Origin: Burkholderiales bacterium
GTDB lineage: Bacteria; Pseudomonadota; Gammaproteobacteria; Burkholderiales; Casimicrobiaceae
Direction: 5' to 3'
Length of the DNA: 36,369 bases
Assembly (NCBI GenBank): GCA_020852555.1
Contig: JADZAQ010000006.1
Location: forward strand, 1 to 36,369
The notes under the pieces were generated by a model. It ran no database searches, was not told the DNA's origin, and worked only from the letters and a program-made list of their open reading frames with translations. The first letter of the stretch is position 1, and every line of letters begins with the position of its first letter. Below are positions 1-13,515 of the stretch, piece after piece. The position numbers were made by a program, and so were the translations under genes.

Positions 1-1
1 C

Positions 2-91
2 ATCGAGGCATTGCCCGACGCCAGTGAATGGCTGGCGATCCGCGATCGCGTGCAGCGCGCGGTGCACGCCGAGGATGACGATCGCGACTGA
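2..91 (+). CDS. C-terminal end of an unidentified protein (partial)
   Basis: An open frame enters from the left edge and stops at TGA 89-91, giving about 29 residues rich in Asp, Glu and Arg and ending in EDDDRD. Codon use matches the GC-rich genes that follow. The stop lies 48 bases before the glycerate kinase start, so the two could share a transcript. The fragment is too short and too generic to assign to a family, and no function is proposed. Confidence 0.45.
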   Translation: MEALPDASEWLAIRDRVQRAVHAEDDDRD

Positions 92-139
92 CGCCCGCGA
101 CGCCCCGGCCACTCCACCACGCGCCCCCTGCCGACCGCC

Positions 140-1351
140 ATGCGCATCGTCCTCGCCCCCGACTCGTTCAAGGGCTCGCTGAGCGCACCGCAGGTCTGCA
201 CCGCGCTCGCGCGCGGCCTCCGGCAGGTCATGCCCGACGCCGAGATCGTCGTGCGACCGATGGCCGACGGCGGCGAAGGTACGCTCGACGCCGTGCTCGC
301 CGCGGCCCCCGCAGGGGCGCGTCGCGAGACCGCGCGCGTCACCGGCGCCGGCGGCGAACCCGTCGACGCCGCGTACGGGGTGCTGGCACACGACGGCACC
401 ACGACGGCGATCATCGAAGCGGCGCAGGTCGTCGGCATCACCGACCAGGCCGCGATGCGCGTATCGGTGCGCGCGCGCTCGACGCAGGGTCTGGGCGAAC
501 TCCTGCGCCACCTCCTCGACCGCGGCATCCGTCGCTTCGTCGTGGGCCTGGGCGGCAGCAGTACCAACGACGGCGGCAGTGGTCTCCTCGCCGCGCTCGG
601 CGCGGAACTCGTCGATGGACGGGGGAAACGCATCGCACCCACTCCCGATGGTCTCGCCGCGCTGGCCCGAATCGCGATGCGCGATGTCGATGCGCGGCTC
701 GCGCATTGCGACATCCGCATTCTGTCGGACGTGAACAATCCGCTGACCGGCACCCTCGGCGCCACCGCGATCTTCGGACCGCAAAAGGGCGTGCAGCCCG
801 ACGAGGTCGCCGCGATCGACGCCACGCTCGCTGCCTTCGCTCGCATCGCGCGGGACGCCTTCGGCCGCGACGTCGCGGACCGGCCGGGCGCGGGCGCCGC
901 GGGTGGCCTGGGCTTCGCCTTCCAACTCCTGGGCGCCACGATGCAATCGGGTGCCGAGGTGGTGGCCGAACAGGTCGGCCTCGATGCCGCGCTCGCCGAT
1001 GCGCAGTGGGCGCTCACCGGCGAAGGACGCAGCGACCGGCAGACGCTGCTGGCCAAGGCGCCGTACGTCGTCGCCCGTCATGCCGCCAAGCACGGCGTCC
1101 CGGTCACGCTCGTCTCGGGCGCGGTCGACCACGGCGCGCTCGATGCCCTGGGCGCTCACTTCGCGGGGTGCTTCGGACTCGCCGACGGCCCGATGGACTT
1201 GGCGGCGTGCATTGCGAATGCCGCGGCGCTTCTCGAAGCGCGCGCCGCGAACCTCGCCCGACTGGTCCTCGCGCATCCCGCGGTGCGATCGCCGCGAAGC
1301 GGATCGATCGGCGCGGCACCCGGCGAGCACGGGTGGCAGCCTGTGGAATAA
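140..1351 (+). CDS. glxK: Glycerate 2-kinase (GlxK/GarK family)
   Basis: Phosphorylates D-glycerate with ATP, the last step that brings glyoxylate-derived carbon into glycolysis. The 403-residue protein opens with the family signature APDSFKGSLSA (residues 6-16), followed by ADGGEGT (42-48) and a GLGGSSTNDGG glycine-rich segment near residue 138. The family is usually about 375-385 residues; the extra 20 or so residues are a Pro/Gly/Ala tail with no recognisable domain. ATG start at 140; no strong ribosome binding site is visible. It is 48 bases before the acyl-CoA ligase and converges on the transporter genes. Because the neighbouring minus-strand genes encode oxalyl-CoA decarboxylase and formyl-CoA transferase, I infer a role in assimilating oxalate carbon through glyoxylate, tartronate semialdehyde and glycerate. 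Other enzymes of that route are not in the window. The family call is firm; glxK versus garK is not resolvable here. Confidence 0.9.
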   Translation: MRIVLAPDSFKGSLSAPQVCTALARGLRQVMPDAEIVVRPMADGGEGTLDAVLAAAPAGARRETARVTGAGGEPVDAAYGVLAHDGTTTAIIEAAQVVGITDQAAMRVSVRARSTQGLGELLRHLLDRGIRRFVVGLGGSSTNDGGSGLLAALGAELVDGRGKRIAPTPDGLAALARIAMRDVDARLAHCDIRILSDVNNPLTGTLGATAIFGPQKGVQPDEVAAIDATLAAFARIARDAFGRDVADRPGAGAAGGLGFAFQLLGATMQSGAEVVAEQVGLDAALADAQWALTGEGRSDRQTLLAKAPYVVARHAAKHGVPVTLVSGAVDHGALDALGAHFAGCFGLADGPMDLAACIANAAALLEARAANLARLVLAHPAVRSPRSGSIGAAPGEHGWQPVE

Positions 1352-1399
1352 TCGGCCGCGTCGCCGACCGGTCGTCGGCTCGCGCGGGCCGACCCCACC

Positions 1400-2896
1400 A
1401 TGGACGCCAATCTCTATTCGCTGATCGAGCGGCACGCGCCACCCGGCGGCAACGAGCCATGCCTCGTCGAACCGGGCGGGCCGGTGGTGCACTACGACGA
1501 CCTTTTCGCGATGTCGGCGCGCGTCGCGCACGCGCTAGTCGCCGCCGGCTGCGAGCCGGGCGACCGGGTCGCCGCGCAGGTGGACAAGCACTGGCACGTG
1601 CTCGCGCTCTACCTCGCGTGCCTGCGCGCGGGGCTCGTCTACCTGCCGCTCAACACCGGCTACCAGCGCAGCGAACTCGAGTATTTCTTCGCCGATGCAA
1701 GGCCGCGCGTCATCGTCTGCCAGCCGGACCGACTCGGTACGATCGCCGCCGGGCAGCGCGCCGCGACCGTGCTGACCCTTGCCGAACTCATGGACCGCGC
1801 CGCGAGCGCGCCTACCGCATTCGCGACGGTGCCGCGCGGCGCCGACGATCTCGCGGCGATCCTCTACACCTCTGGCACGACCGGGCGCTCCAAGGGGGCG
1901 ATGATCACGCACCGCAACCTCGCGTCGAACGCGTTGGCGCTCGTCGCGGAATGGGGCTTCACGCGTGGCGACGTCCTGCTGCACGCACTGCCGATCTACC
2001 ACGTCCACGGGCTCTTCGTGGCGATCCACTGCGTGCTGCTGTCCGGCGCGCGCATGCTGTGGCTGCCCAAGTTCGATGCGCAGGAGGTGACGGCGCTGCT
2101 GCCGCGCGCGACGGTCATGATGGGCGTGCCCACGTTCTACACCCGGCTCCTGGGCGAGCCGGCGTTCGGGCGCGATGCCTGTGCCACGATCCGCCTCTTC
2201 GTTTCGGGCTCGGCGCCGCTGCTCGCCGAGACGTTCGAGGCATTCGAGGCGCGCACCGGCCAGGCGATCCTCGAGCGCTACGGCATGACCGAGGCGGGGA
2301 TGATCACGTCCAATCCGCTCACCGGACCGCGCCGCGCCGGGACCGTGGGAACGCCGCTGCCCGGCATCGAGGTGCGCATCGTCGACGAGCAAGGCACGCC
2401 GTGTGCCGACGAGGCGATCGGCGGCGTCGAGGTCCGCGGCCCCAACATCTTCGCGGGCTACTGGCAGATGCCGGAGAAGACGCGAGCGGAGTTCACCGCC
2501 GACGGCTACTTCAAGACCGGCGACATCGGCCAATGGGTCGACGCCGGCGCCGGGACCCCGTACCTGCGCATCGTCGGCCGCGCCAAGGATCTCATCATCA
2601 CCGGCGGGCTCAACGTCTATCCGAAGGAAATCGAGGAGCGCATCGACGCGCTCGACGGCGTGGTCGAATCGGCGGTCGTCGGTGTCCCCGATGCCGATTT
2701 CGGCGAGGCGGTCGCCGCGGTCGTCGTTCGCCGCGGCGGCGCCGCGCTCACCGAGGCGCAGGTGATCGCCGCCCTCACCGGCGAGATCGCCAGGTTCAAG
2801 GTGCCCAAGCGCGTGATCTTCGTCGACGACCTGCCGCGCAACGCGATGGGCAAGGTGCAGAAGGCCGTGCTGCGCGACCGCTTCGCGGCGCCGTAG
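1400..2896 (+). CDS. AMP-forming acyl-CoA ligase, malonyl-CoA/oxalyl-CoA synthetase-like
   Basis: A 498-residue member of the acyl-adenylate (ANL) superfamily, which activates a carboxylate to the acyl-AMP and then the CoA thioester. Visible motifs are the P-loop YTSGTTGRSKG (156-166), HVHGLF (201-206), MGVPTFYTR (241-249), ERYGMTE (292-298), the hinge region KDLIITGGLNVYPKEIEE and a catalytic-type lysine in MGK at about 485. The HVHGLF, MGVPTFYTR and RYGMTE combination resembles malonyl-CoA synthetase (MatB). Plant oxalyl-CoA synthetase (AAE3) is, to my knowledge, another short-dicarboxylate member of the superfamily. Next to frc and oxc, oxalate is as plausible a substrate as malonate. No malonyl-CoA decarboxylase is present, which would have argued for malonate. 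ATG start; probably co-transcribed with glycerate kinase. Confidence 0.85.
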   Translation: MDANLYSLIERHAPPGGNEPCLVEPGGPVVHYDDLFAMSARVAHALVAAGCEPGDRVAAQVDKHWHVLALYLACLRAGLVYLPLNTGYQRSELEYFFADARPRVIVCQPDRLGTIAAGQRAATVLTLAELMDRAASAPTAFATVPRGADDLAAILYTSGTTGRSKGAMITHRNLASNALALVAEWGFTRGDVLLHALPIYHVHGLFVAIHCVLLSGARMLWLPKFDAQEVTALLPRATVMMGVPTFYTRLLGEPAFGRDACATIRLFVSGSAPLLAETFEAFEARTGQAILERYGMTEAGMITSNPLTGPRRAGTVGTPLPGIEVRIVDEQGTPCADEAIGGVEVRGPNIFAGYWQMPEKTRAEFTADGYFKTGDIGQWVDAGAGTPYLRIVGRAKDLIITGGLNVYPKEIEERIDALDGVVESAVVGVPDADFGEAVAAVVVRRGGAALTEAQVIAALTGEIARFKVPKRVIFVDDLPRNAMGKVQKAVLRDRFAAP

Positions 2897-2908
2897 CGCG
2901 CCGTGCGC

Positions 2909-2927
2909 GGGGGCGCGTTACGCCCCC
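2909..2927. terminator. Hairpin between convergent ligase and tctA genes
   Basis: A perfect 7-bp stem (GGGGGCG / CGCCCCC) with a 5-base loop lies 12 bases after the ligase stop and contains the tctA stop codon of the opposite strand. No long T-run follows on either strand, so intrinsic termination is possible but not secured. A stem at a convergent gene end suits a bidirectional 3'-end element. Confidence 0.4.
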
Positions 2928-4429
2928 TTCACCGCCGACCGGCCACGCGCGCGCTCGCGCAGCGCCGCCATCATCGGCCACAGCAGGATGACGATGCCCA
3001 GCGTGACGATCGACCCGACGAGCCAGTTCGACCAGAACACGCCGAGGTTGCCCGCCGACAGCAGCATCGACTGGCGGAACGCCGTTTCCGCCATGTCGCC
3101 CAGCACCAGCGCCAGCACGAACGGCGCGAGCGGGTACTTCAGCTTCTTGAAGACGTAGCCGACGCCGCCGAACACCACCATCATCACCACGTCGAACATG
3201 TTGTTGTGGACCGTGTACGCACCGATCGCGCAGATCACGACGATGACCGGCGCGATGATCGCGAACGGAATGCGCAGGATCGACGCCCACCAGGGCACGG
3301 TGGTGAGCACGACGATGAGGCCGACGACGTTGCCGAGATACATCGAGGCGATGAGGCCCCACACGAAGTCCTTCTTCTCGACGAAGAGGAGCGGGCCCGG
3401 CTGCAAACCCCAGATGAGCAGCCCCCCCAGGAGCACCGCCGCGGTCGGCGAGCCGGGAATGCCCAGCGTCAGCATCGGCAGCAGCGCGCTCGTGCCTGCC
3501 GCGTGAGCGGCGGTTTCCGGCGCCACGACGCCTTCGATCTCGCCGTCGCCGAACTTCTCCTTCCGCTTGGCGAAGCGGCGCGCCATGCCGTAGCTCATGA
3601 ACGACGCCGGCGTGGCGCCGCCCGGGGTGATGCCCATCCAGCAGCCGATGAGACAGGAACGCAACGACGTGGCCCAGTAACGCGGCAGCTCGGCCCACGT
3701 CTTCAGCACGACCTTGGGATCGATGCGGCCGTGCTTGCCCTTGAAGGAAAGGCCCTCTTCCATGGTGAGGAAGATCTCGCCGAGGCCGAAGAGGCCGATC
3801 ACCGCGATGAGGAAGTCGAATCCCTGCAGGAGCGCCGGCATGCCGTAGGTCATGCGCAGCGTGCCGGTCACCGTGTCGATGCCGACCGCCGCGAGCGCGA
3901 AGCCGATCATCATCGAGGCGATCGTCTTCACCGGCGGCTCGCGGCCCATGCCCACGAAGCTCGCGAAGGTGAGGAACTGGATCGCGAAGTACTCGGGTGG
4001 CCCGAACTGCAGAGCGAACTTGGCGACGAGGGGCGCCAGGAACGTGATGAGCACGATGGCGAAGAAAGCGCCGACGAACGACGACGTGAACGCCGCGGTG
4101 AGCGCCTCGCCGGCCCGGCCCTTCTGCGCCATCGGATAGCCGTCGAACGTCGTCGCCACCGACCACGGCTCCCCCGGGATGTTGAACAGGATCGAGGTGA
4201 TCGCCCCGCCGAACAGCGCGCCCCAGTAGATGCACGACAGCATGATGATCGCCGAGGTCGGCGGCATCGAGAACGTCAGGGGCAGGAGGATCGCGATCCC
4301 GTTGGCGCCGCCCAGTCCGGGCAGCACCCCGATCAGCACGCCGAGCAGGATGCCGACGAGCATGAAGAGCACGTTCTTCCAGCTCAGCGCGACCGCGAAG
4401 CCGTGCATCAGGTTGCCGATGTCTTCCAC
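2918..4429 (-). CDS. tctA: Tripartite tricarboxylate transporter, large permease TctA
   Basis: The 503-residue large membrane subunit of a TTT-family secondary importer, expected in the inner membrane with about twelve segments. The N-terminal half shows the family glycine-rich stretch GVLPGLGGANGIAILLPL near residues 36-53, and later the repeat-like PGGATPASFMSYGMA and TLGIPGSPTAAVLLGGLLIWG segments. Length is typical for TctA. The start is GTG at 4429, preceded by GAGGG with five bases of spacing. It is last in a tctC-tctB-tctA series, 84 bases after tctB. TTT systems move citrate, tartrate, tricarballylate and other carboxylates using a periplasmic binding protein. The neighbouring oxalate genes suggest a small dicarboxylate such as oxalate, which is inference. 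Confidence 0.95.
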   Translation of the reverse strand: MEDIGNLMHGFAVALSWKNVLFMLVGILLGVLIGVLPGLGGANGIAILLPLTFSMPPTSAIIMLSCIYWGALFGGAITSILFNIPGEPWSVATTFDGYPMAQKGRAGEALTAAFTSSFVGAFFAIVLITFLAPLVAKFALQFGPPEYFAIQFLTFASFVGMGREPPVKTIASMMIGFALAAVGIDTVTGTLRMTYGMPALLQGFDFLIAVIGLFGLGEIFLTMEEGLSFKGKHGRIDPKVVLKTWAELPRYWATSLRSCLIGCWMGITPGGATPASFMSYGMARRFAKRKEKFGDGEIEGVVAPETAAHAAGTSALLPMLTLGIPGSPTAAVLLGGLLIWGLQPGPLLFVEKKDFVWGLIASMYLGNVVGLIVVLTTVPWWASILRIPFAIIAPVIVVICAIGAYTVHNNMFDVVMMVVFGGVGYVFKKLKYPLAPFVLALVLGDMAETAFRQSMLLSAGNLGVFWSNWLVGSIVTLGIVILLWPMMAALRERARGRSAVKGA

Positions 4430-4513
4430 GCCAATCCCTCGTCAATACCGGTGCACGACGCGCATCACCGAATCAATGGAGCCCGATTGCGCCGAGCGCG
4501 CGATCCGCGGTTG

Positions 4514-5026
4514 CTAGTACCCGAGCAGGTTCTCGAGCGGCCCCTTGGGCAGCGGCACGAGGAACCAGATCTCGAACAGGACGAACATCACGAACGGCAC
4601 GCCGACGCTCACCAGCAACGTGGGAAACCACCGGTACTTGCCCTGGAACAGCATGAAGCCGGCGATGAAGATCGCCGACGACACGTAGATGCCGATGAAG
4701 CTGATCAGGATCACGTAGCCGATGGTCGGCAGCAGCATCGTCAGCACTGGCCGGAAATCGTGCAGGGTCACGAAGACCTTGTCCGCATCCTGCCGCCAGC
4801 GTCGCAGTTGCTGGAAGACGACCCAGGCGCCGCAGCCGATCAGGATCCAGCCGATGATGTTGGGAAAGTACCCCGACTGCGGGCCGTCGTCGGCCCATGC
4901 CGCGCCCACGCGGTGACTGTCGGTCACCGCGAGGACGCCAAGAAGGGCGATGAGCAGGCCCACCGCCACCTCCATCCACCGGGTCTCGATCACGCCACCC
5001 GGCGACGCGCCGTTCTTCTCGGCCAT
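4514..5026 (-). CDS. tctB: Tripartite tricarboxylate transporter, small permease TctB
   Basis: A 170-residue, four-segment hydrophobic protein matching the small membrane subunit of TTT transporters. Hydrophobic stretches lie at about 18-35, 54-72, 92-122 and 130-160. The PQSGYFPNIIGWILIGCGA region after the first segment is the usual TctB pattern of an extracytoplasmic loop with Gly/Tyr/Phe-Pro before helix 2. The gene begins 7 bases after the tctC stop and is followed by tctA, so the three subunits are very likely co-translated in the order binding protein, small permease, large permease. The sequence is weakly conserved in this family, so the call rests on size, topology and context together. 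Confidence 0.92.
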   Translation of the reverse strand: MAEKNGASPGGVIETRWMEVAVGLLIALLGVLAVTDSHRVGAAWADDGPQSGYFPNIIGWILIGCGAWVVFQQLRRWRQDADKVFVTLHDFRPVLTMLLPTIGYVILISFIGIYVSSAIFIAGFMLFQGKYRWFPTLLVSVGVPFVMFVLFEIWFLVPLPKGPLENLLGY

Positions 5027-5033
5027 GGCGCGC

Positions 5034-6038
5034 CTACTTGGCGATGAATCCCGCGTCCTGCATGAGCTGCTTGTGCACCTTCTCGGCGTTCGCGACCCAG
5101 TCCGCGTACTCCTTGCCGGTCATGAAGGTGTTCTTGAAGGCGGCATCCTCGGTGAACTTCTTCCACTCGGGCGTCTCACGCACCTTCTTGAAGAGGTCGA
5201 CGTAGAAGTTGACCTGGTCCGGCGTGACGCCCGGCGGCATGAAGATCCCGCGCAGCATCAGATATTCAACGTCGAGCCCCTGCGATTTGCAGGTCGGGAT
5301 GTCGCCCCAGGCGTGCGTCGCGGTCACCTTCGTGGTGTACGCCATCGGCTGGCTGTCGAAGACGCACAGCGGCCGCAGCGCGCCCGAGCGCCAGTGCGCG
5401 ACCGCCTCGATCGGGTTGTTGACCGTCGAGTCGACGTGCTTGCCGACCAGTTGCACCGCGACGTCACCGCCGCCCTTGAAGGGCACGTACGTCATCTTCT
5501 TGCCGGTCGCCTTGTCGATCGCCACCGTGATGATCTGGTCTTCCTGCTTGCTGCCGGTGCCGGCCATCTTGAATTTGCCGTTGTCGCCGGCCTTGATCGC
5601 CGCCATGTACTCGGCCGTCGTCTTGTACGGCGACTCGGCGTTGACCCACAGCACGAACTCGTCGAGCGCGAGCATCGCGACCGGCGTCAGGTCCTTCCAG
5701 TTGAACGGCACGCCGGTGGCGAGCGGCGTCGTGAAGAGATTGGAGAGCGTGATGATGATCTTGTTGGCATCGCCCTTCGCGTTCTTCACCTCGAGGAAGC
5801 CTTCGGCACCCGCACCGCCCGACTTGTTGACGACGATGATCGGCTGCTTCATCAGGTTGTTCTTGGCGACGACGCCCTGGATGAAGCGGGCCATCTGGTC
5901 GGCGCCACCCCCGGTGCCCGCCGGCACGATGAACTCCACGGGCTTGGTCGGTTCCCATGCCGCGAGCGCCGGGAAGGCGGCGGCAACGGCAACGGCAAGG
6001 CCGGTAGCAACGACACTGCGGCGCAAGATGCTCTTCAT
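5034..6038 (-). CDS. tctC: TTT-family periplasmic substrate-binding protein TctC
   Basis: A 334-residue extracytoplasmic solute receptor (Bug/TctC family). The ATG at 6038 is chosen because AGGAGG sits six bases upstream; an open frame continues further 5' but lacks secretion features. The N-terminus MKSILRRSVV plus a hydrophobic, Ala-rich run ending near ALAAW is a Sec signal peptide of about 27 residues. Mature-protein features include PVEFIVPAGTGGGADQMAR, the TctC ligand-loop region, and VVNKSGGAGAEGF. It delivers the carboxylate to TctAB. Bug proteins are abundant in betaproteobacteria and their ligands cannot be read from sequence. Clustering with frc, oxc and an acyl-CoA synthetase points to oxalate or a related C2-C4 dicarboxylate. 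Confidence 0.94.
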   Translation of the reverse strand: MKSILRRSVVATGLAVAVAAAFPALAAWEPTKPVEFIVPAGTGGGADQMARFIQGVVAKNNLMKQPIIVVNKSGGAGAEGFLEVKNAKGDANKIIITLSNLFTTPLATGVPFNWKDLTPVAMLALDEFVLWVNAESPYKTTAEYMAAIKAGDNGKFKMAGTGSKQEDQIITVAIDKATGKKMTYVPFKGGGDVAVQLVGKHVDSTVNNPIEAVAHWRSGALRPLCVFDSQPMAYTTKVTATHAWGDIPTCKSQGLDVEYLMLRGIFMPPGVTPDQVNFYVDLFKKVRETPEWKKFTEDAAFKNTFMTGKEYADWVANAEKVHKQLMQDAGFIAK

Positions 6039-6118
6039 TTGATTCCTCCTGAAAGCTGACGAGATTGCATGCGGCTCTCGCTGGCCCGCTTCACTTCTGC
6101 ACTGTACCCCAGAACCAC

Positions 6119-6143
6119 GCGTGCGAGTTCTTCCATCGCACGC
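6119..6143. other. Intercistronic hairpin between acyl-CoA synthetase and tctC
   Basis: An 8-bp perfect inverted repeat (GCGTGCGA / TCGCACGC) with a 9-base loop lies 13 bases after the synthetase stop, in the 118-base gap before tctC. There is no U-tract. On the minus strand it could be a partial terminator, or a processing or stability stem that adjusts expression of the binding protein relative to the enzymes. Confidence 0.35.
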
Positions 6144-6156
6144 GCCACCGAGCCGA

Positions 6157-8289
6157 TTACTTGATGAGACCGGCACCCCGCGCCCATCGATACTTCGCCG
6201 CGAGCACCATCACCGGCATCTCGGTCGAATACGGATACGCGGGGATGCCGTGATCGAACAGGTACTCGGCCGCCTCCTCGACCTCGACGTCGCCGGCGAG
6301 CGATACCGTGATCGGCTTGGCGATGCCTTTCGCGCGGAATTCCTCGACGACCTCGGCCACGAGCTTCGCGAAGACCATCGGCGGCGTCACGATCGTGTGC
6401 CAGTAGCCCAGCACCAGCGAGTGGATGCGCGGATCCTCGAGACCGAGGCGGATCGTGTTCTGGTAGGTCTTCGGCGGCTCGCCACCGGTGATGTCGACGG
6501 GATTGCCGGCAGCGCCGAACGGCGGGATGAACTTGCGGAATGCCGCATCGAGATCCGCCGGCATCGCCATCAGCTTCAGGTCGTTGTCGACGCACGCATC
6601 GGACAGCAGAACGCCGGACCCGCCGGCGCCGGTGATGATGACCACGTTCTCGCCCTTCGGCGTGGGCAGCTTGGGGATCGCGCGCGCGTACTCGAGCATC
6701 TCGCGCAGCGCCTTGGCGCGGATCACGCCCGACTGGCGCAGCACGTCGTCGTAGATCTTGTCGTTGCCGGCGAGCGCGCCGGTGTGCGAGCTCGCCGCCT
6801 TCGCGCCCATCGCGGTGCGCCCGGCCTTGAGAACCACGATCGGCTTCTTCTTCGACACCCGCTTCGCCACCTCGGCGAAGCTGCGGCCGTCCTTCAGGTC
6901 CTCGCAGTGCTGCACGATGATGTGCGTGTTGTCGTCCTGCTCGAAGAAGGTAAGCAGGTCGTCCTCGTCGATGTCCGACTTGTTACCCAAGCCCACGATC
7001 GCCGATACGCCCATCTTCGCCGAGCGGGAGAAGCCGATGATCGCCATGCCGATGCCGCCCGACTGCGACGACAAGGCGGCGTGCCCCTTGTAGTCGTACG
7101 CCGTGCAGAACGTCGCGCAGAGGTTCTTCCACGTGTAGTAGAAGCCGTAGATGTTGGGACCCATGAGCCGCACGCCGTACTTGCGACCGATCGCCTGGAT
7201 CTCCTCCTGGCCCTCGACGTTGCCCGTCTCGGCGAAGCCCGACGGGATGAGCACCGCTCCCGGGATCTTCTTTTCGCCGCACTCGGTGAGCGCCGCCGCG
7301 ACGAACTTCGCGGGAATCGCGAACACCGCGACGTCGACGACGCCGGGGATGTCCTTGACGCTCTTGTACGCCTTCAGCCCCATGATCTCGTCGGCGGACG
7401 GATTGATCGGGTAGATCTTCCCCTGGTAGCCGCCGTTGATGAGGTTCTTCATCACCGAGTTGCCGATCTTGCCGGCCTCGCTCGAGGCGCCGATCACCGC
7501 CACCGCATCGGGCTTCATGATGCGGTTCATGTCACGCACGATGTCGTCGTGCTTCGGCCGGTAGCGCGCCGGCGCCGGATTCCAGTCGCAAACGATGCGC
7601 ACGTCGGCGGCGGTCGCGCCGTTCTTCGTCGCGAACACCGGATTGAGGTCCATCTCCGCGATCTCGGGGAAGTCGGCGACGAGCTGCGATACGTTCTCGA
7701 TGAGGCCCGCGAGCGCGTCGCGGCTCACCGGGTCGGCGCCGCGCACACCCTTCAGGATGTCGCCGGCCTGGATGCCATCGAGCATCGAGAGCGCATCCTC
7801 CTTGGTCGCCGGGGCGAGCCGGAACGTGATGTCCTTCAACACCTCGACGAGCACGCCGCCCAAGCCGAAGGCGACGAGCTTGCCGAATGACGGGTCGGTG
7901 ACGGCGCCGATGATCACTTCTTGCCCGCCGGAGAGCATCTGCTGAACCTGGACGCCGAGGAGGTTCGCCTTCGCATCGTACTTCTTCGCGTTGGCCATGA
8001 TGGTGGCGAAACCCTTCTCGGCCTCTTCTGCCGTCCTCACGCCGACCAGCACGCCCCCCGCTTCGGTCTTGTGGAGGATTTCGGGCGAGACGATCTTCAG
8101 CACGACCGGAAAACCCATGCCGGAGGCGAGCTTCGCCGCTTCCGCCGCCGATGTAGCGACCCCCTCCTTCGGTACCGGGATGCCGTAGGCGTCGCACACG
8201 CCCTTGCCTTCGGGCGCGGTGAGCGACGTGCGTCCCGACGCCTTCACGGCATCGAGGATCTTGCGGACTGCGTTCTTGTCGTGGGCCAT
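6157..8289 (-). CDS. NDP-forming acyl-CoA synthetase with ATP-grasp domain first
   Basis: A 710-residue fused acyl-CoA synthetase of the acetyl-CoA synthetase (ADP-forming)/succinyl-CoA ligase superfamily, which makes acyl-CoA from acid, CoA and a nucleoside triphosphate through a phosphohistidine. Domain order is unusual: an ATP-grasp (beta-type) unit at about 10-235, with LKIVSPEILHKTEAGGV at 64-80, then a CoA-binding Rossmann unit at about 255-350 (AVIGASSEAGKIGNS), then the succinyl-CoA-ligase-like part with SSHTGALAG, whose His502 is the expected phosphorylated residue. Most fused bacterial members have the CoA-binding half first. ATG at 8289 has GAGGAA upstream. It sits 64 bases after frc and 118 before tctC. 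Its substrate is not readable; oxalate, formate or acetate are candidates. It could prime the frc/oxc cycle by making oxalyl-CoA or formyl-CoA. Confidence 0.9.
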   Translation of the reverse strand: MAHDKNAVRKILDAVKASGRTSLTAPEGKGVCDAYGIPVPKEGVATSAAEAAKLASGMGFPVVLKIVSPEILHKTEAGGVLVGVRTAEEAEKGFATIMANAKKYDAKANLLGVQVQQMLSGGQEVIIGAVTDPSFGKLVAFGLGGVLVEVLKDITFRLAPATKEDALSMLDGIQAGDILKGVRGADPVSRDALAGLIENVSQLVADFPEIAEMDLNPVFATKNGATAADVRIVCDWNPAPARYRPKHDDIVRDMNRIMKPDAVAVIGASSEAGKIGNSVMKNLINGGYQGKIYPINPSADEIMGLKAYKSVKDIPGVVDVAVFAIPAKFVAAALTECGEKKIPGAVLIPSGFAETGNVEGQEEIQAIGRKYGVRLMGPNIYGFYYTWKNLCATFCTAYDYKGHAALSSQSGGIGMAIIGFSRSAKMGVSAIVGLGNKSDIDEDDLLTFFEQDDNTHIIVQHCEDLKDGRSFAEVAKRVSKKKPIVVLKAGRTAMGAKAASSHTGALAGNDKIYDDVLRQSGVIRAKALREMLEYARAIPKLPTPKGENVVIITGAGGSGVLLSDACVDNDLKLMAMPADLDAAFRKFIPPFGAAGNPVDITGGEPPKTYQNTIRLGLEDPRIHSLVLGYWHTIVTPPMVFAKLVAEVVEEFRAKGIAKPITVSLAGDVEVEEAAEYLFDHGIPAYPYSTEMPVMVLAAKYRWARGAGLIK

Positions 8290-8353
8290 TTCGATTTCCT
8301 CGCTAGCTTCGTTGCGTCGGCGTTATTGGGTCGAGCGGCGTGGTCGCGCCGCG

Positions 8354-9601
8354 TCAGATGGCGCCCTCGGCGCGCAGTGCCGCGACCTGTTCGGTGCCGT
8401 AGCCCAGCTCGGCCATCACCTCGTCGGTGTGCTCGCCCAGGAGCGGCGAGCGGACGACCTCGGTCGGGCTGTCGGAGAGCTTGATCGGATTGCCGACGGT
8501 CAGGTACTTGCCGCGCTTCGGATGGTCGACCTCGACGATGGTGCCGGTCTTGCGCAACGACGGCTCGGCGGCAAGCTCCTTCATCGACAGGATCGGTCCG
8601 CACGGGATGTCGTGCTGGTTCAGGATGTCCATGGCCTCGAACTTGGTCTTGGTCATCGTCCACTTCTCGATGTCGGCGAAGATGTCCTGCAAGTGCGGCA
8701 GCCGCGCCTTCGGCGTCGCGTAGCGCGGATCGGTCAGCCACTCGGGCCGGCCGATCACCTCGCAGATTGCCTTCCACACCGGCGCCTGGGTGATGAAATA
8801 GATGTACGCGTTGGGGTCGGTCTCCCAGCCTTTGCACTTGAGGATCCAGCCCGGCTGGCCGCCGCCGGAGGCGTTGCCGGCGCGCGGGACCGCTTCGCCG
8901 AAGACGCCGTTCGGGTACTGCGGATACTCCTCCATCACGTGCGTGCGATCGAGGCGCTGCTGGTCGCGCAGCTTGACGCGGCACAGGTTCAGCACGCCGT
9001 CCTGCATCGCCGCGGTCACCCTCTGCCCACGCCCGGTGCGGTGGCGCTGGTAGAGCGCGGTGACGATGCCGAGCGCGAGGTGCAGGCCGGTCCCCGAGTC
9101 GCCGATCTGCGCGCCGGTCACCATCGGCGGACCGTCGTCGAAGCCGGTGGTCGACGCCGAGCCGCCGGCGCACTGCGCCACGTTCTCGTAGACCTTGCAG
9201 TCCTGATACGGCCCCGGGCCGAAGCCCTTGATCGACGCGACGATCATGTGCGGATTGAGTTCCTGGATGCGCTCCCAGGTGAAGCCCATGCGATCGAGCG
9301 CGCCCGGCGCGAAATTCTCGACCAGCACGTCGCACTTCCTGACCAGTGCCTCGAGCACTTCCTTGCCCTTCGGCTTCTTGGCGTCGATGGTCACCGAGCG
9401 CTTGTTGTGGTTCAGCATCGTGAAGTAGAGGCTGTCCACGTCGGGGATGTCGCGCAGTTGCCCGCGGGTAATGTCGCCCTCGCCGGCGCGCTCGACCTTG
9501 ATCACGTCGGCGCCGAACCACGCGAGGAGTTGCGTGCACGTCGGGCCCGACTGCACGTGCGTGAAGTCGAGGATGCGCACACCGTCCAATGCCTTGCTCA
9601 T
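8354..9601 (-). CDS. frc: Formyl-CoA:oxalate CoA-transferase
   Basis: A class III (CaiB/BaiF) CoA-transferase of 415 residues that swaps CoA from formyl-CoA to oxalate, giving oxalyl-CoA and formate. The ATG at 9601 follows AGAGGAAT; the longer open frame upstream has no homology-like content. The N-terminus [20 protein letters not shown] is typical. The catalytic aspartate is Asp168 in GDSGTG, and the mobile glycine loop is SGGGQPGW at 245-252. It resembles Oxalobacter Frc over its full length, judged by eye from memory. Residue 48, Trp in the Oxalobacter enzyme, is Gln here, as I recall for Escherichia coli YfdW. Together with oxc just upstream this strongly supports oxalate rather than another acyl substrate. 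It is followed at 64 bases by the NDP-forming synthetase. Confidence 0.95.
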
Positions 9602-9626
9602 TCGATTCCTCTCTGCCTTGTCGTCC

Positions 9627-9665
9627 ACTGCCGCGGCGCACCGACCACGCGCCACCCGCGGCAGT
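9627..9665. other. Hairpin in the oxc-frc gap, proximal to frc
   Basis: A perfect 10-bp inverted repeat (ACTGCCGCGG / CCGCGGCAGT) encloses a 19-base loop and ends about 25 bases before the frc start codon. Together with the second stem at 9678-9699 it fills much of the 143-base intercistronic region. It may be a stability or processing element that sets the frc:oxc ratio; no U-run supports termination. Confidence 0.4.
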
Positions 9666-9677
9666 CTCCAGTCGTAT

Positions 9678-9699
9678 CGGGCGCCCGCGATGGCGCCCG
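9678..9699. other. Hairpin in the oxc-frc gap, proximal to oxc
   Basis: A perfect 8-bp stem (CGGGCGCC / GGCGCCCG) with a 6-base loop lies 45 bases downstream of the oxc stop on the minus strand. There is no U-tract. It could protect the oxc 3' end after mRNA processing, or act as a weak Rho-independent terminator between oxc and frc. Confidence 0.4.
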
Positions 9700-9744
9700 T
9701 GCGTATCGATTTGCTACGCCGCGGCGCACCCGAGCGCGCGGTTG

Positions 9745-11514
9745 CTACTTCTTCTTGGCCGTCGGATTGAGGCCCGTGATGCGGCCGCTCTCGGTGCCGC
9801 CGCCCTCGGCCACCACCGCGTTGATGAGCGTCGGCCGCTTGCTGCGGATCGCCTCCTCCATCGCGCGGCGCAATTCGTCCGGCGTCTTCACGTGCACGCC
9901 GACGCCGCCGAACGCTTCCATCATCTTCTCGTAGCGCGCGTCCTTGACGAAGACGAGCGGCGACGGATCGGTCGCGTTGCCCCAGCTCTTCTCGTCGCCG
10001 CGGTACACGCCGTTGTTGTTGAGGATGACGATGCACACCGGCAGGTCGTAGCGGCAGATCGTCTCCGTTTCCATGCCGGAGAAGCCGAAGGCGCTGTCGC
10101 CCTCGACGGCGATGACCTGCTTCCCGGTGGCGACGGCCGCCGCCACGCAGTAACCCATGCCGATGCCCATGATCCCCCAGGTGCCGACGTCGATGCGCTT
10201 GCGCGGCTGGTACATGTCGACGATCGAGCGCGTGAAGTCGAGCGCGTTGGCGCCCTCGTTCACGAACATCGCATCGGGATTCGCCTTGACGATGTCGCGC
10301 ACCACGTTGAGCGCGCTCTGGAAGCTCATCGGCGAGGGATTCTTGGCGAGCGTCTCCGCCATCTTGGCGACGTTCTTCGCCTTGCGCTCGGCGATCGCAC
10401 CCGTCCACTCGGCGGGCGGTTTCGGGAAATGCGCACCGAGCTCGGCGAGGAGCGCCGCGACGCACGAGCCGATGTCGCCCACCACCGGCGCCTCGATACG
10501 CACGTTGCTGTCGGCTTCCTGCGGCGAAATGTCGATCTGGATGAAGCGCTGCCCGCCCCAGGACTTCGATGTGGCACCGCCCCAGGTCTTGCCCTTGCCC
10601 TGCGACAGCAGCCAGTTGAGCCGCGCACCGACGAGCAGCACCACGTCGGCTTCCGGCAACACGAACGAACGTGCCGCCGAAGCGCACTGCTCGTGCGTGT
10701 CGGGCAGCAGGCCCTTGGCCATCGACATCGGCAGGTACGGAATGCCGGTCTTCTCGACGAGCGCGCGGATGTCGGCATCGACCTGCGCGTAGGCCGCACC
10801 CTTGCCGAGGATGATGAGCGGCTTTTTCGCGCCCTTCAGAAGCGCGACCGCGCGCTTGATCGCCTCGGGTGCCGGCAGCTGGCGCGGCGCCGGGTCGACG
10901 ACCTTGATGAGCGATGCCTTGCCGGCCGCCGCCTCCATCTCCTGCGGGAAGAGTTTGGCGGGCAGGTCGAGGTAGACCCCACCCGGACGGCCGGAGACGG
11001 CAGCCCGGATCGCGCGCGCGATGCCCACACCAATGTCCTCGGCGTGCAGCACGCGGAACGCCGCCTTGGCGATCGGCTTGGCGATCGCCAACTGGTCCAT
11101 CTCCTCGTAATCGCCCTGCTGCAGGTCGACGATCTCGCGCTCGGACGAGCCGCTGATGAGGATCATCGGGAAGCAGTTGGTCGTCGCGTGCGCGAGCGCG
11201 GTGAGCCCGTTGAGGAACCCCGGCGCCGACACGGTGAGGCAGATGCCGGGCTTTCCCGTCAGGAAACCGTCGATCGATGCGGCGTAGCCGGCGCTCTGCT
11301 CGTGGCGGAACGAGATCACGCGCAGCCCCGACTTCTGCATGCGACGTGCGAGATCGGTGATCGGAATTCCCGGCACGCCGTAGATCGTCTCGATGCCGTT
11401 CAATTTCAGCGCGTCGATCACGAGCTGGAAGCCGTCGATCTCATGGCTCGCGGCCGCGGCGGTCGCGTGCGTGCCGGCGGGACTGGAAGCAGGCTTGGTG
11501 GTGGTGTGGTCCAT
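9745..11514 (-). CDS. oxc: Oxalyl-CoA decarboxylase (thiamine diphosphate-dependent)
   Basis: Decarboxylates oxalyl-CoA to formyl-CoA and CO2 and feeds the formyl-CoA back to Frc. The 589-residue protein has the three-domain TPP-enzyme layout. The N-terminal Pyr domain carries the activating glutamate in [12 protein letters not shown] (Glu72), and the C-terminal TPP/Mg motif starts at GDSAFGFSG (472-480) and ends at the NN pair at 499-500. ATG at 11514 follows GGAGAG; upstream in-frame sequence is intergenic. An Ala/Thr-rich extension of about 20 residues precedes the usual N-terminus. The C-terminus ends PTAKKK. It is the first gene of the minus-strand cluster and is divergent from the GntR-type regulator, so its promoter lies in the 289-base shared region. 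Acetolactate-synthase-like alternatives are unlikely given the frc neighbour. Confidence 0.96.
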
Positions 11515-11648
11515 GGCATCTCTCCGGACGGTGACGACGCCCGCGCCGTCAGGCGGGCGTCGCGCGACTGTGTGCAGAAGGCGCGGAAGTGTCGAAAGCC
11601 ACCCCGCCAGATCCTCCGAAGCTGGAAGCCTGCTGCCGCTTGGCTTCT

Positions 11649-11683
11649 CTTGATATTCGGCGTAAGATATGTGATATATCAAG
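11649..11683. promoter_or_regulatory. Candidate GntR operator over divergent promoters
   Basis: Between oxc and the regulator is an AT-rich island in GC-rich DNA. It holds a perfect 10-bp palindrome TGATATATCA (11672-11681) inside a larger inverted repeat CTTGATAT (11649-11656) / ATATCAAG (11676-11683). TTGATA at both edges resembles a -35 hexamer on each strand, so a bound regulator would cover both promoters. FadR-subfamily GntR proteins bind short palindromes of this kind. Assignment to the adjacent regulator is inference from position. Confidence 0.6.
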
Positions 11684-11803
11684 CGGTGTCAACACGCCCG
11701 CGATCCCGTCCGCAGCACACCGGGTGACTACCGGGTGCGTGGCGTTGCGCGGCATCCGCCGCGCCGCCATCATGCTGCGCTCCGCGCCCGCGAGTCCGTC
11801 GTC

Positions 11804-12544
11804 ATGCTGCGCACCACCGCATCCGCTCGCCGCAAAGCCCCGCGCGCCGTCACCGCGCCGCCGACCCTGCCCGCCTTGGCGCCGATCGCCGCCACCGCGA
11901 GCCTGCGCGATCGCGCTTACGCGGCGCTCAAGCGGATGATCACCGACGCCGACATCTATGCGCATCCGGAGGAGATCCGGCTCGACGAGAAACAGCTCTC
12001 GGCGGCGCTCGGCGTTTCGCGCACGCCGATCCGCGAGGCGATGACGCTTCTCGAGCAGGAGGGGTTCCTGCGCACCGAGCCGCGTCGCGGCATCTTCATC
12101 GTGCGCAAGACCAAGCGCGAGATCATCGAGATGATCCAGATGTGGGCGGCGCTCGAGAGCATGGCGGCGCGCCTCGCCACGACCAGCGCGACCGACGCCG
12201 AGATCGCCGGGCTCCGACGCCTCTTCGACGAGTTCCGCACCGAGGCGCCCGCGGACCATCTCGAGGAGTACTCCGACGCCAACATCGCGTTCCACCAGGC
12301 GATCATGCGGCTGTCGAAATCGCCGCTCATGACCAGGACGACCGACAACCTCTTCGTCCACGTACGCGCGATCCGCAAGATGACCATCTCGCAGAAGGAC
12401 CGTGCCGCGCGCTCGATCGCCGATCACATGCGCATCATCGACGCGCTGGAGAAGCGCGATACCGAGTTGGCGGAACGCTTGGTCCGCCAGCACTCGCTCG
12501 ACCTCGCCACCCACGTCGAGCGCTACTGCGACTTCCTCGACTGA
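11804..12544 (+). CDS. GntR-family regulator with FCD domain (FadR subfamily)
   Basis: A 246-residue transcription factor. The winged helix-turn-helix spans about residues 34-100 and includes LDEKQLSAALGVSRTPIREA and the wing EPRRGIFIV. The C-terminal FCD domain (about 105-240) keeps the metal/ligand-type pattern DANIAFHQAI, then DHMRIIDAL, then HSLDLATHV. FCD regulators usually sense small carboxylates. The gene is divergent from oxc, so the likely role is control of the oxalate cluster, possibly released or activated by oxalate, oxalyl-CoA or formyl-CoA. The start is uncertain: ATG 11804 is preferred, but a GTG at 11735 in the same frame would add 23 Arg-rich residues, and neither has a clear ribosome binding site. 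Confidence 0.88.
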   Translation: MLRTTASARRKAPRAVTAPPTLPALAPIAATASLRDRAYAALKRMITDADIYAHPEEIRLDEKQLSAALGVSRTPIREAMTLLEQEGFLRTEPRRGIFIVRKTKREIIEMIQMWAALESMAARLATTSATDAEIAGLRRLFDEFRTEAPADHLEEYSDANIAFHQAIMRLSKSPLMTRTTDNLFVHVRAIRKMTISQKDRAARSIADHMRIIDALEKRDTELAERLVRQHSLDLATHVERYCDFLD

Positions 12545-12585
12545 CGCCAGCCGGCGCCCCGCGGCCACCGGGGGAGGCGAAGGCG

Positions 12586-12606
12586 GGCGCGGCGCACCGC
12601 CGCGCC
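12586..12606. terminator. Hairpin between convergent GntR and TSUP genes
   Basis: A perfect 9-bp stem (GGCGCGGCG / CGCCGCGCC) with a 3-base loop sits between two converging genes, 5 bases from the TSUP stop. It is very GC-rich with no T-run, so it is a candidate bidirectional 3'-end element rather than a proven terminator. Confidence 0.45.
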
Positions 12607-12611
12607 GCGCG

Positions 12612-13421
12612 CTAACGGAAGTGCGCCGCCTTCCACCACATGTACGCGCCGAGGAGGAAGAGCAGCGTGGCGAACGCGTAGCGCAGTTTCGTCACCGGCA
12701 GCGCGTGCGCGACGCGCGCGCCCACGGGAGCGAGCAGCGTGCTGGTGAACACGATCCCCACGAGCGCGGGCAGGTAGACATAGCCGACGGCGTACTGCGG
12801 CAAGCCGGCCCGCCCCCATCCGGCGAGCATGAAGCCCACGGTCGCGGCAATGGCGATCGGAATGCCGATCGCGGCAGACGTGGCGACTGCCGTGTGCATC
12901 CGGACGTTGCACCGGGTCATGAACGGTACCGCGAGGAAGGCCCCTCCGGTGCCGACCATGCCGGCGGCCACGCCAATGCCCGCGCCCACCGCGGCCAGGC
13001 CGCGCCATCCCGGCAGTTGGCGCGACGCGACCGCGGTACGCTTGCGCACCATGCGCCACGCCCCCCACCAGATGAAGGCCCCGAAGACGCCGGCCATCAT
13101 CGACGGCGGCAGCCCGCTCGCGATCTGCGGACCGACGAGGGAACCCAGCACGATCCCCGGCGCCATCGCCTTCACCACGCGCCAGTCGACCGCCCCCTTC
13201 GCGTGATGCGCCCGCGTCGAGGAGAACGCGGTGAACACGATGGTGCCCGACGAGGTTCCGATCGCCATCGGCACGATGCAGTCGCGCGCGAAGCCCTGCG
13301 ACGAGAAGACCTCGACCAGGATCGGCACGATGGTGAAGCCGCCGCCGATGCCGAGCAACCCCGCGAGGAAGCCGACGAACGCGCCGGTGGCGAGGAAGAT
13401 GGGGAAGATCGCGAAGTTCAT
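12612..13421 (-). CDS. TSUP (TauE/SafE-like) membrane permease
   Basis: A 269-residue polytopic inner-membrane protein of the TauE/SafE/TSUP family, whose members export or import sulfite, sulfoacetate or other small organosulfur and carboxylate anions. The internal duplication is visible: GFLAGLLGIGGGFTIVP near residue 17 and GVAAGMVGTGGAFLAVP in the second half are the paired repeat motifs. About eight hydrophobic segments fit the family. The ATG at 13421 is preferred over an upstream TTG at 13430. It converges on the GntR gene and is upstream of nothing obviously related, so its substrate is unknown. Being 67 bases from the oxalate regulator might hint at anion export in that pathway, but the strand and terminator-like hairpin argue for independent expression. 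Confidence 0.88.
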   Translation of the reverse strand: MNFAIFPIFLATGAFVGFLAGLLGIGGGFTIVPILVEVFSSQGFARDCIVPMAIGTSSGTIVFTAFSSTRAHHAKGAVDWRVVKAMAPGIVLGSLVGPQIASGLPPSMMAGVFGAFIWWGAWRMVRKRTAVASRQLPGWRGLAAVGAGIGVAAGMVGTGGAFLAVPFMTRCNVRMHTAVATSAAIGIPIAIAATVGFMLAGWGRAGLPQYAVGYVYLPALVGIVFTSTLLAPVGARVAHALPVTKLRYAFATLLFLLGAYMWWKAAHFR

Positions 13422-13515
13422 CGGTTGCAACGCGCGTCGTCGAGGATCGGTATCGCAAAACGATGCGGCGCGTGCACGGCCACCGCGGGACCCTCGCCGC
13501 TGGCCGATCCGCGCC

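Follow-up and report, generated by a model that had tools for sequence, protein, structure and literature searches.

The stretch of DNA analyzed here (referred to as the window; 36,369 nucleotides of contig JADZAQ010000006.1, assembly GCA_020852555.1, from a Burkholderiales bacterium) carries a putative oxalate-catabolic locus, in which genes for oxalyl-CoA decarboxylase (Oxc), formyl-CoA:oxalate CoA-transferase (Frc), a nucleoside diphosphate (NDP)-forming acyl-CoA synthetase (ACS), and a tripartite tricarboxylate transporter (TTT) lie together. The nine genes of the locus were all present within positions 140-12544, and the oxalate-gene series was located on the minus strand, in the following order of transcription:

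9745..11514, minus strand: oxc, oxalyl-CoA decarboxylase, 589 aa (TIGR03254; ATG at 11514)
8354..9601, minus strand: frc, formyl-CoA:oxalate CoA-transferase, 415 aa (TIGR03253; ATG at 9601)
6157..8289, minus strand: ACS, 710 aa with the domain order beta-alpha, proposed oxalate (or formate) CoA loader (Pfam domains)
5034..6038, minus strand: tctC, solute-binding protein, 334 aa, proposed oxalate receptor (PF03401; ATG at 6038)
4514..5026, minus strand: tctB, small TTT membrane subunit, 170 aa (PF07331, 77 bits)
2918..4429, minus strand: tctA, large TTT membrane subunit, 503 aa (PF01970, 511 bits)

The intergenic gaps from oxc to tctA were 143, 64, 118, 7, and 84 bp, and because of these short distances the six genes are consistent with a single operon. 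The order oxc-frc-ACS-tctC-tctB-tctA was identical in both other genomes of the same genus that were sampled (L104 and L105; referred to, together with the window's own genome, as the three genus genomes), which argues against a chance arrangement. A preliminary description of this DNA had placed oxc, frc, the NDP-forming synthetase, and tctCBA in series on one strand, with a GntR/FCD gene diverging from oxc and the genes for glycerate kinase and an AMP-forming ligase converging on the series from the tctA side; this layout was confirmed, as was the lack of relationship between the two acyl-CoA ligases, one being an NDP-forming ATP-grasp enzyme and the other AMP-forming. Only the NDP-forming ACS belonged to the widely conserved oxalate group.

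Two sets of relatives were used for comparison. The order sample comprised 399 tool-drawn genomes, of which 75 matched the oxc model and 324 did not. The set of ACS loci comprised the best 80 (71-90% identity) of 208 relatives found by a peptide-pattern scan of a species-genome collection; L122 of this set is the contig of genome G396 that also appears as L104. Genes at the compared loci were called with a simple script.

Oxc and Frc were assigned by curated equivalog models, with scores of 955 bits on TIGR03254 (cut-off, 739) and 743 bits on TIGR03253 (cut-off, 504), respectively, and their best matches in the PDB were 7ayg and E. coli YfdW (1pt5). Four residues of Oxc (E137, A422, Y504, and S576), corresponding to those of 7ayg that differ in the variant 7b2e, were invariant in 41/41 aligned rows; these are active-site residues changed in 7b2e. 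The equivalog score and these conserved residues ruled out a 2-hydroxyacyl-CoA lyase (HACL) as the product of oxc. Asp168 of Frc, the catalytic aspartate, was retained in all 70 aligned rows, and the glycine loop was invariant except at one position (66 of 70 rows). Among 74 oxc loci examined in the order sample, 47 had a best Frc with less than 60% identity to that of the window, and many of these 47 contained a gene for a Crp-like regulator together with one resembling a formyltransferase. This Fmt-family gene (below the cut-off) occurred at 52 loci (L043, L045, L090, and 49 others), at 49 of which it directly adjoined frc, and its product might move the formyl group from formyl-CoA to folate.

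TctA, TctB, and TctC all scored above their Pfam cut-offs (PF01970, PF07331, and PF03401, respectively) and are encoded by adjacent genes, corresponding to a complete TTT; the N-terminus of TctC appeared signal-like by eye. Orthologues of TctC, defined by at least 57% identity (a threshold chosen after the gap to 47-56% had been seen), were found in 74/399 genomes: 56/75 with oxc and 18/324 without (Fisher p 6.7e-36). This count includes fragment matches of G052, G330, and G293, and scores as negative 12 genomes at 47-56%, 5 of them with oxc; the identities of the remaining TctC matches in the sample were either 47-56% or no higher than 39%. Of the 56 genomes with both genes, 45 had tctC no more than 15 kb from oxc, the median distance being 3.2 kb and the largest 7.2 kb, and these close pairs spanned 9 families and 18 genera. 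The two genes were on different contigs in 9 of the 56, and about 40 kb apart on one contig in 2.

The surroundings of tctC in all 18 genomes without oxc contained an AAE3-type ligase gene in 10, frc with a HACL-like enzyme (described below) in 3, frc alone in 1, and none of these in 4 (L221, L225, L229, and L230; L229 had a PanE-type gene). The best structures for the AAE3-type ligase of L222 were oxalate-CoA ligases (5ie0, 6qjz, and 8aff with 424, 417, and 368 bits, respectively), followed among other kinds by a fatty acyl-CoA synthetase with 219 bits, and the remaining nine AAE3-type ligases were 63-78% identical to the L222 copy. In a phylogenetic tree of TctC, the rows linked to oxc/frc and those linked to AAE3 fell into one clade of 92 rows (SH-aLRT 95; 69 oxc/frc, 10 AAE3, 1 PanE, 1 BhcA-type, and 11 other), which was separate from most rows with genes for a BhcA-like aminotransferase and a YdiJ-like oxidase. 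Eight of the 77 TctC rows with oxc/frc nearby fell outside this clade; the tree was a quick one with a midpoint root, in which several long branches meet.

Since oxalate is the substrate shared by the oxc/frc and AAE3 contexts, the genomic association strongly suggests that TctC would bind oxalate and that this TTT would take it up. The proposal of the preliminary description that oxalate enters through a system with a periplasmic binding protein was thus supported by the association in the order sample (56/75 versus 18/324). The observation named there as grounds for refutation, that the tct and synthetase genes never co-occur with oxc/frc in relatives, was also looked for; co-occurrence was found, and the proposal was not refuted. 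TTT systems bind many acids, and the substrate of this one may instead be some other small dicarboxylate, such as malonate (a convergent matB gene ends 21 bp from tctA in the window), with the transporter a mere neighbor of the oxalate genes. We regard this as very improbable: the tctC clade associates with oxc/frc or AAE3, and close matB homologues were found near just 11/80 ACS loci.

Two further observations concern TctC. A PanE-type reductase gene was present at 8 of the 10 oxc-less loci with tctCBA and AAE3 (L213, L214, L219, L222, L224, and L226-L228), and tctCBA, the AAE3-type ligase, and this reductase possibly constitute a route from oxalate to glyoxylate. The TctC group at 47-56% identity (L193-L202, L231, and L232) mostly lay beside genes for the BhcA-like aminotransferase and the YdiJ-like FAD oxidase, and perhaps imports glyoxylate, glycolate, or another hydroxy acid.

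ACS contained the ATP-grasp_5, CoA_binding_2, Succ_CoA_lig, and Ligase_CoA_2 domains, all above the Pfam cut-offs, and His73 and His502, the two histidines of the phosphoryl relay, were invariant in 79/79 aligned rows. This domain set and both histidines place the protein in the superfamily of NDP-forming acyl-CoA synthetases. On the other hand, the scores were far under the curated cut-offs of the equivalogs for 4-hydroxybutyrate, acetate, and 3-hydroxypropionate ligases (586/1300, 497/1200, and 455/1300 bits, respectively). The 80 ACS loci came, by record title, from Burkholderiales and other Betaproteobacteria, Rhizobiales, Rhodospirillales, and Gammaproteobacteria, and isolated contigs were labeled Eremiobacterota, WPS-2, Rokubacteria, and Acidobacteria. 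Among culturable relatives, Thiomonas delicata has ACS and the HACL-like enzyme described below, and a Bradyrhizobium has tctCBA, frc, oxc, gntR, and ACS. The frc gene was found in the flank of 73/80 loci, at a distance of 300 bp or less in 60; among the 7 loci without frc, 4 (L150, L155, L166, and L178) were ended by the contig within 1.9 kb upstream of ACS and 3 (L156, L180, and L192) were not. There are therefore good grounds to regard ACS as a distinct subfamily of the NDP-forming synthetases linked to frc.

No match to the priming CoA-transferase YfdE (NF008511) exceeded the cut-off of 522 bits in any of the three genus genomes (best, 279). Because of this and the association with frc, a plausible role of ACS is to attach CoA to oxalate or formate; on the simplest reading, it would produce oxalyl-CoA or formyl-CoA at the expense of ATP and thereby prime and refill the Frc cycle. 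The ATP-dependent loading of CoA beside frc, as suggested in the preliminary description, was thus supported by the gene neighborhoods (frc at 73/80 ACS loci).

As for the acid that is activated, ACS may act on formate as a formyl-CoA synthetase (formate-CoA ligase) and not as an oxalate-CoA ligase, and would then give oxalyl-CoA in two steps together with Frc. ACS was tied to frc (73/80) more than to oxc (44/80) or to either oxc or a HACL-like gene (60/80), and five loci (L151, L162, L163, L164, and L188) had no intact decarboxylase between the regulator and frc. However, several of the absent oxc genes are explained by contig ends, and the ACS sequence itself gives no discrimination between oxalate and formate; we consider the formate-specific version a tentative alternative, somewhat less probable than its negation. 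The substrate may also be a different C2-C4 acid from the same diet (glycolate, glyoxylate, or malate), with ACS merely travelling with the oxalate genes. Its closest characterized kin take hydroxybutyrate, hydroxypropionate, or acetate, and mtkA-like (malate-CoA ligase) genes were found near 21/80 ACS loci; on the other hand, mtkAB itself would provide malyl-CoA and the most constant partner of ACS is frc, making such a role unlikely. The occurrence of mtkA and mtkB near ACS (L132-L134, L151, L155-L157, L162-L168, and others) hints at a link with the serine cycle.

A thiamine enzyme of the HACL-like type was encoded at 18/80 ACS loci: 14 genes were full length, 2 were cut at the contig start, and 2 were remnants. 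The 14 full-length genes were located 17-103 bp from frc, in the usual position of oxc. Their products were 25-28% identical to Oxc (seven compared), and the copy of L152 (5821-7578) scored 440 bits on PRK05858 (cut-off, 587) with an actinobacterial 2-hydroxyacyl-CoA lyase as its best structure. Members of the same family also lay in this position in L217 (3752-5443), L218, and L220, three crp-frc-tct clusters whose genomes gave no oxc match. N-terminal remnants of the HACL-like gene lay just before oxc (L120:5384-5656 and L127:5423-5638) and a C-terminal remnant just before frc (L164:7461-7556), suggesting the in-place exchange of oxc and the HACL-like gene. Judging from this position, the HACL-like enzyme is perhaps a second oxalyl-CoA decarboxylase; if this is true, surveys based on oxc miss oxalotrophs.

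Taken as a whole, we consider it fairly probable that the locus is an oxalate-catabolic operon that combines TTT import, the Frc/Oxc cycle, and loading by ACS. In the proposed mechanism, TctC would bind oxalate in the periplasm and TctAB would carry it in, replacing the OxlT antiporter, as the genomic association suggests. From their family membership, Frc is predicted to use formyl-CoA as the CoA donor for oxalate, and Oxc to decarboxylate oxalyl-CoA to formyl-CoA. ACS would attach CoA to oxalate or formate with the consumption of ATP, thereby starting the cycle, and may replace formyl-CoA or oxalyl-CoA that has been lost or drained. The GntR/FCD protein would control the operon, and formate would be oxidized by an NAD-linked formate dehydrogenase encoded elsewhere: a homologue of FdsA was found in the window's own genome (72% identity) and in the other two genus genomes on the oxc contig (37-38%), which supports an energy gain from formate.

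No match to OxlT (TIGR04259) was detected at E 1e-30 in the three genus genomes, which are drafts. In the flanks of the 80 ACS loci, an OxlT-like gene (counted by cluster or threshold) was near 25, a TctC orthologue near 20, both near 2 (L137 and L143), and neither near 37. The two kinds of genes were rarely together (2/80), a pattern expected of alternative importers.

Several points weigh against the proposed mechanism. The OxlT-like genes at 25/80 ACS loci indicate that other importers are common, and the TctC orthologue was absent from 19/75 oxc genomes. ACS was rare in the order sample (at least 87% identity in 3/75 oxc genomes; 4/399 genomes at E 1e-200), and its absence from most oxc clusters means that the cycle does not require it. 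Moreover, CaiB-type transferases below the YfdE cut-off (best 279 bits versus 522) were present in all three genus genomes and could prime the cycle. Absences from the window's genome are weak evidence because it is a draft (3.83 Mb in 282 contigs, 94% complete with 5% contamination).

Beyond this locus, the comparisons may describe a wider modular oxalate system, consisting of a TTT clade dedicated to oxalate, an frc-bound NDP-forming oxalate (or formate) CoA ligase, and, in sister loci, a HACL-like enzyme of separate evolutionary origin that takes over the position of oxc and acts as a second oxalyl-CoA decarboxylase; we judge the chances for and against this generalization to be about even. 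Oxalate is a carbon source in soil and a cause of kidney stones. For the means by which many oxalotrophs import it and start the Frc cycle, this TTT clade and the ACS bound to frc, respectively, are candidates.

The window shares Frc and Oxc, at the equivalog level, with the Frc/Oxc/OxlT cycle of Oxalobacter formigenes, and differs from it in having a TTT importer rather than OxlT and an additional NDP-forming CoA ligase. E. coli is reported to prime its oxalate cycle, probably, with the CoA-transferase YfdE (PMC3720670). In the yfdXWUVE operon, YfdU is Oxc and the primer lies beside the cycle (PMC3720670), and YfdW is the Frc protein that was the best PDB match of the window's Frc; in the window, the candidate primer is instead an ATP-dependent ligase from a different family, and YfdE had no match above the cut-off in the genus genomes. 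In Burkholderia phytofirmans PsJN, the cluster is reported to be antiporter-oxc-frc, with oxc being required for oxalotrophy (PMC3886118); oxc and frc are together in both systems, while the antiporter gene there contrasts with the TTT and ACS of the window. The AAE3/Pcs60 oxalate-CoA ligases (5ie0, 6qjz, and 8aff) carry out the job proposed for ACS, the ATP-driven formation of oxalyl-CoA, but have an AMP-forming fold rather than the NDP-forming ATP-grasp. The 4-hydroxybutyrate- and 3-hydroxypropionate-CoA ligases and archaeal ACD (8wzu, 9y43, and 4xyl) have the domain set of ACS with aligned catalytic histidines, although ACS fell far under their equivalog cut-offs and forms a separate, frc-linked subfamily.

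The component parts are of known kinds. In the literature searched, with most subscription papers outside the search, we did not find their combination or the dedicated TTT and ACS subfamilies described for oxalotrophy: among the matches listed, no paper linked TTT or NDP-forming synthetases to oxalotrophy, and none of those containing both 'tripartite tricarboxylate' and 'oxalate' was titled on oxalotrophy. The work of Koch et al. in 2014 on oxalotrophy in Bradyrhizobium may already describe parts of such a cluster.

The genes that converge on the minus-strand series were as follows:

1400..2896, plus strand: AMP-forming ligase, malonyl-CoA synthase (MatB) family (NF005702)
140..1351, plus strand: glycerate kinase (TIGR00045)

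The AMP-forming ligase scored 759 bits on the malonyl-CoA synthase model NF005702 (cut-off, 558). Its best structure in the PDB was MatB (4fuq), with 584 bits to RpMatB versus 217 to the plant AAE3 oxalate-CoA ligase 5ie0, a difference that ruled out an oxalate-CoA ligase of the AAE3 type. The genome holds three malonyl-CoA synthase-like copies, two of them beyond the window (C152:5626-7104 and C252:1718-3142, with 73% and 64% identity to the window copy, respectively). The 11 ACS loci with close matB homologues were from records titled Burkholderiales, Betaproteobacteria, or (L119) Proteobacteria. The enzyme is therefore probably a malonyl-CoA synthase and a neighbor outside the oxalate route, and the suggestion of the preliminary description that it provides a second route for loading CoA did not hold, in view of its family, the two paralogues, and the few ACS loci that have it nearby. 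A role as a second oxalate/formate loader might be read from five loci with a homologue of 66-70% identity, which follows ACS on its own strand at distances of 135 bp (L118), 309 bp (L120), about 1.1 kb (L116 and L136), and 5.2 kb (L189). We consider this role decidedly doubtful: the malonyl-CoA synthase model and the MatB structure won by a wide margin, the ligase shared about 31% identity with the AAE3-type enzymes encoded at oxc-less loci, and, besides the two further copies in the genome, homologues at 55-60% were found in 6/9 oxc-less genomes of the family.

Glycerate kinase scored 366 bits on TIGR00045 (cut-off, 168), and its gene also adjoined matB in L104 and L117. The preliminary description had taken it as a sign of assimilation, for which we found weak grounds. 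No match to glyoxylate carboligase (TIGR01504) exceeded 711 bits in the three genus genomes (best, 351), so that assimilation through this enzyme was rejected on present evidence; the PanE-type reductases of the window's own genome were just 44% and 36% identical, and none was detected at E 1e-30 in the other two genus genomes.

The region upstream of oxc contained the following features:

11664..11692, minus strand: sigma-70-like promoter TTGACA-17-TATCTT before oxc (sole match in 1-13500; shuffles give a mean of 1.0)
11672..11681, no strand assigned: palindrome TGATATATCA in the spacer of the oxc promoter, candidate GntR/FCD operator (recurrence in relatives)
11735..12544, plus strand: GntR/FCD transcription regulator, divergent from oxc (PF00392 and PF07729)
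12612-13430: TauE-type gene, beyond the GntR/FCD gene

A scan for terminators was uninformative (4 found versus 5.7 expected), and inverted repeats in the oxc-gntR gap beyond the short palindrome led nowhere. A GntR/FCD homologue of at least 45% identity was present at 45/80 ACS loci, and TTGAC with a similar -10 stretch was found at the same place before oxc in relatives. With one mismatch or less, TGATATATCA occurred upstream of 12/54 full-length oxc/altTPP genes (11/53 distinct, L104 and L122 being one contig), compared with 13/1080 random 350-bp windows from the same loci, and the copies in relatives were mostly preceded by TTGAC and followed by a similar -10. TGATATATCA is thus a candidate operator of the GntR/FCD protein. 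The position of the palindrome and promoter also argues for the start of oxc at 11514 over that at 11682, and on refinement of the start the ATG at 11514 was preferred.

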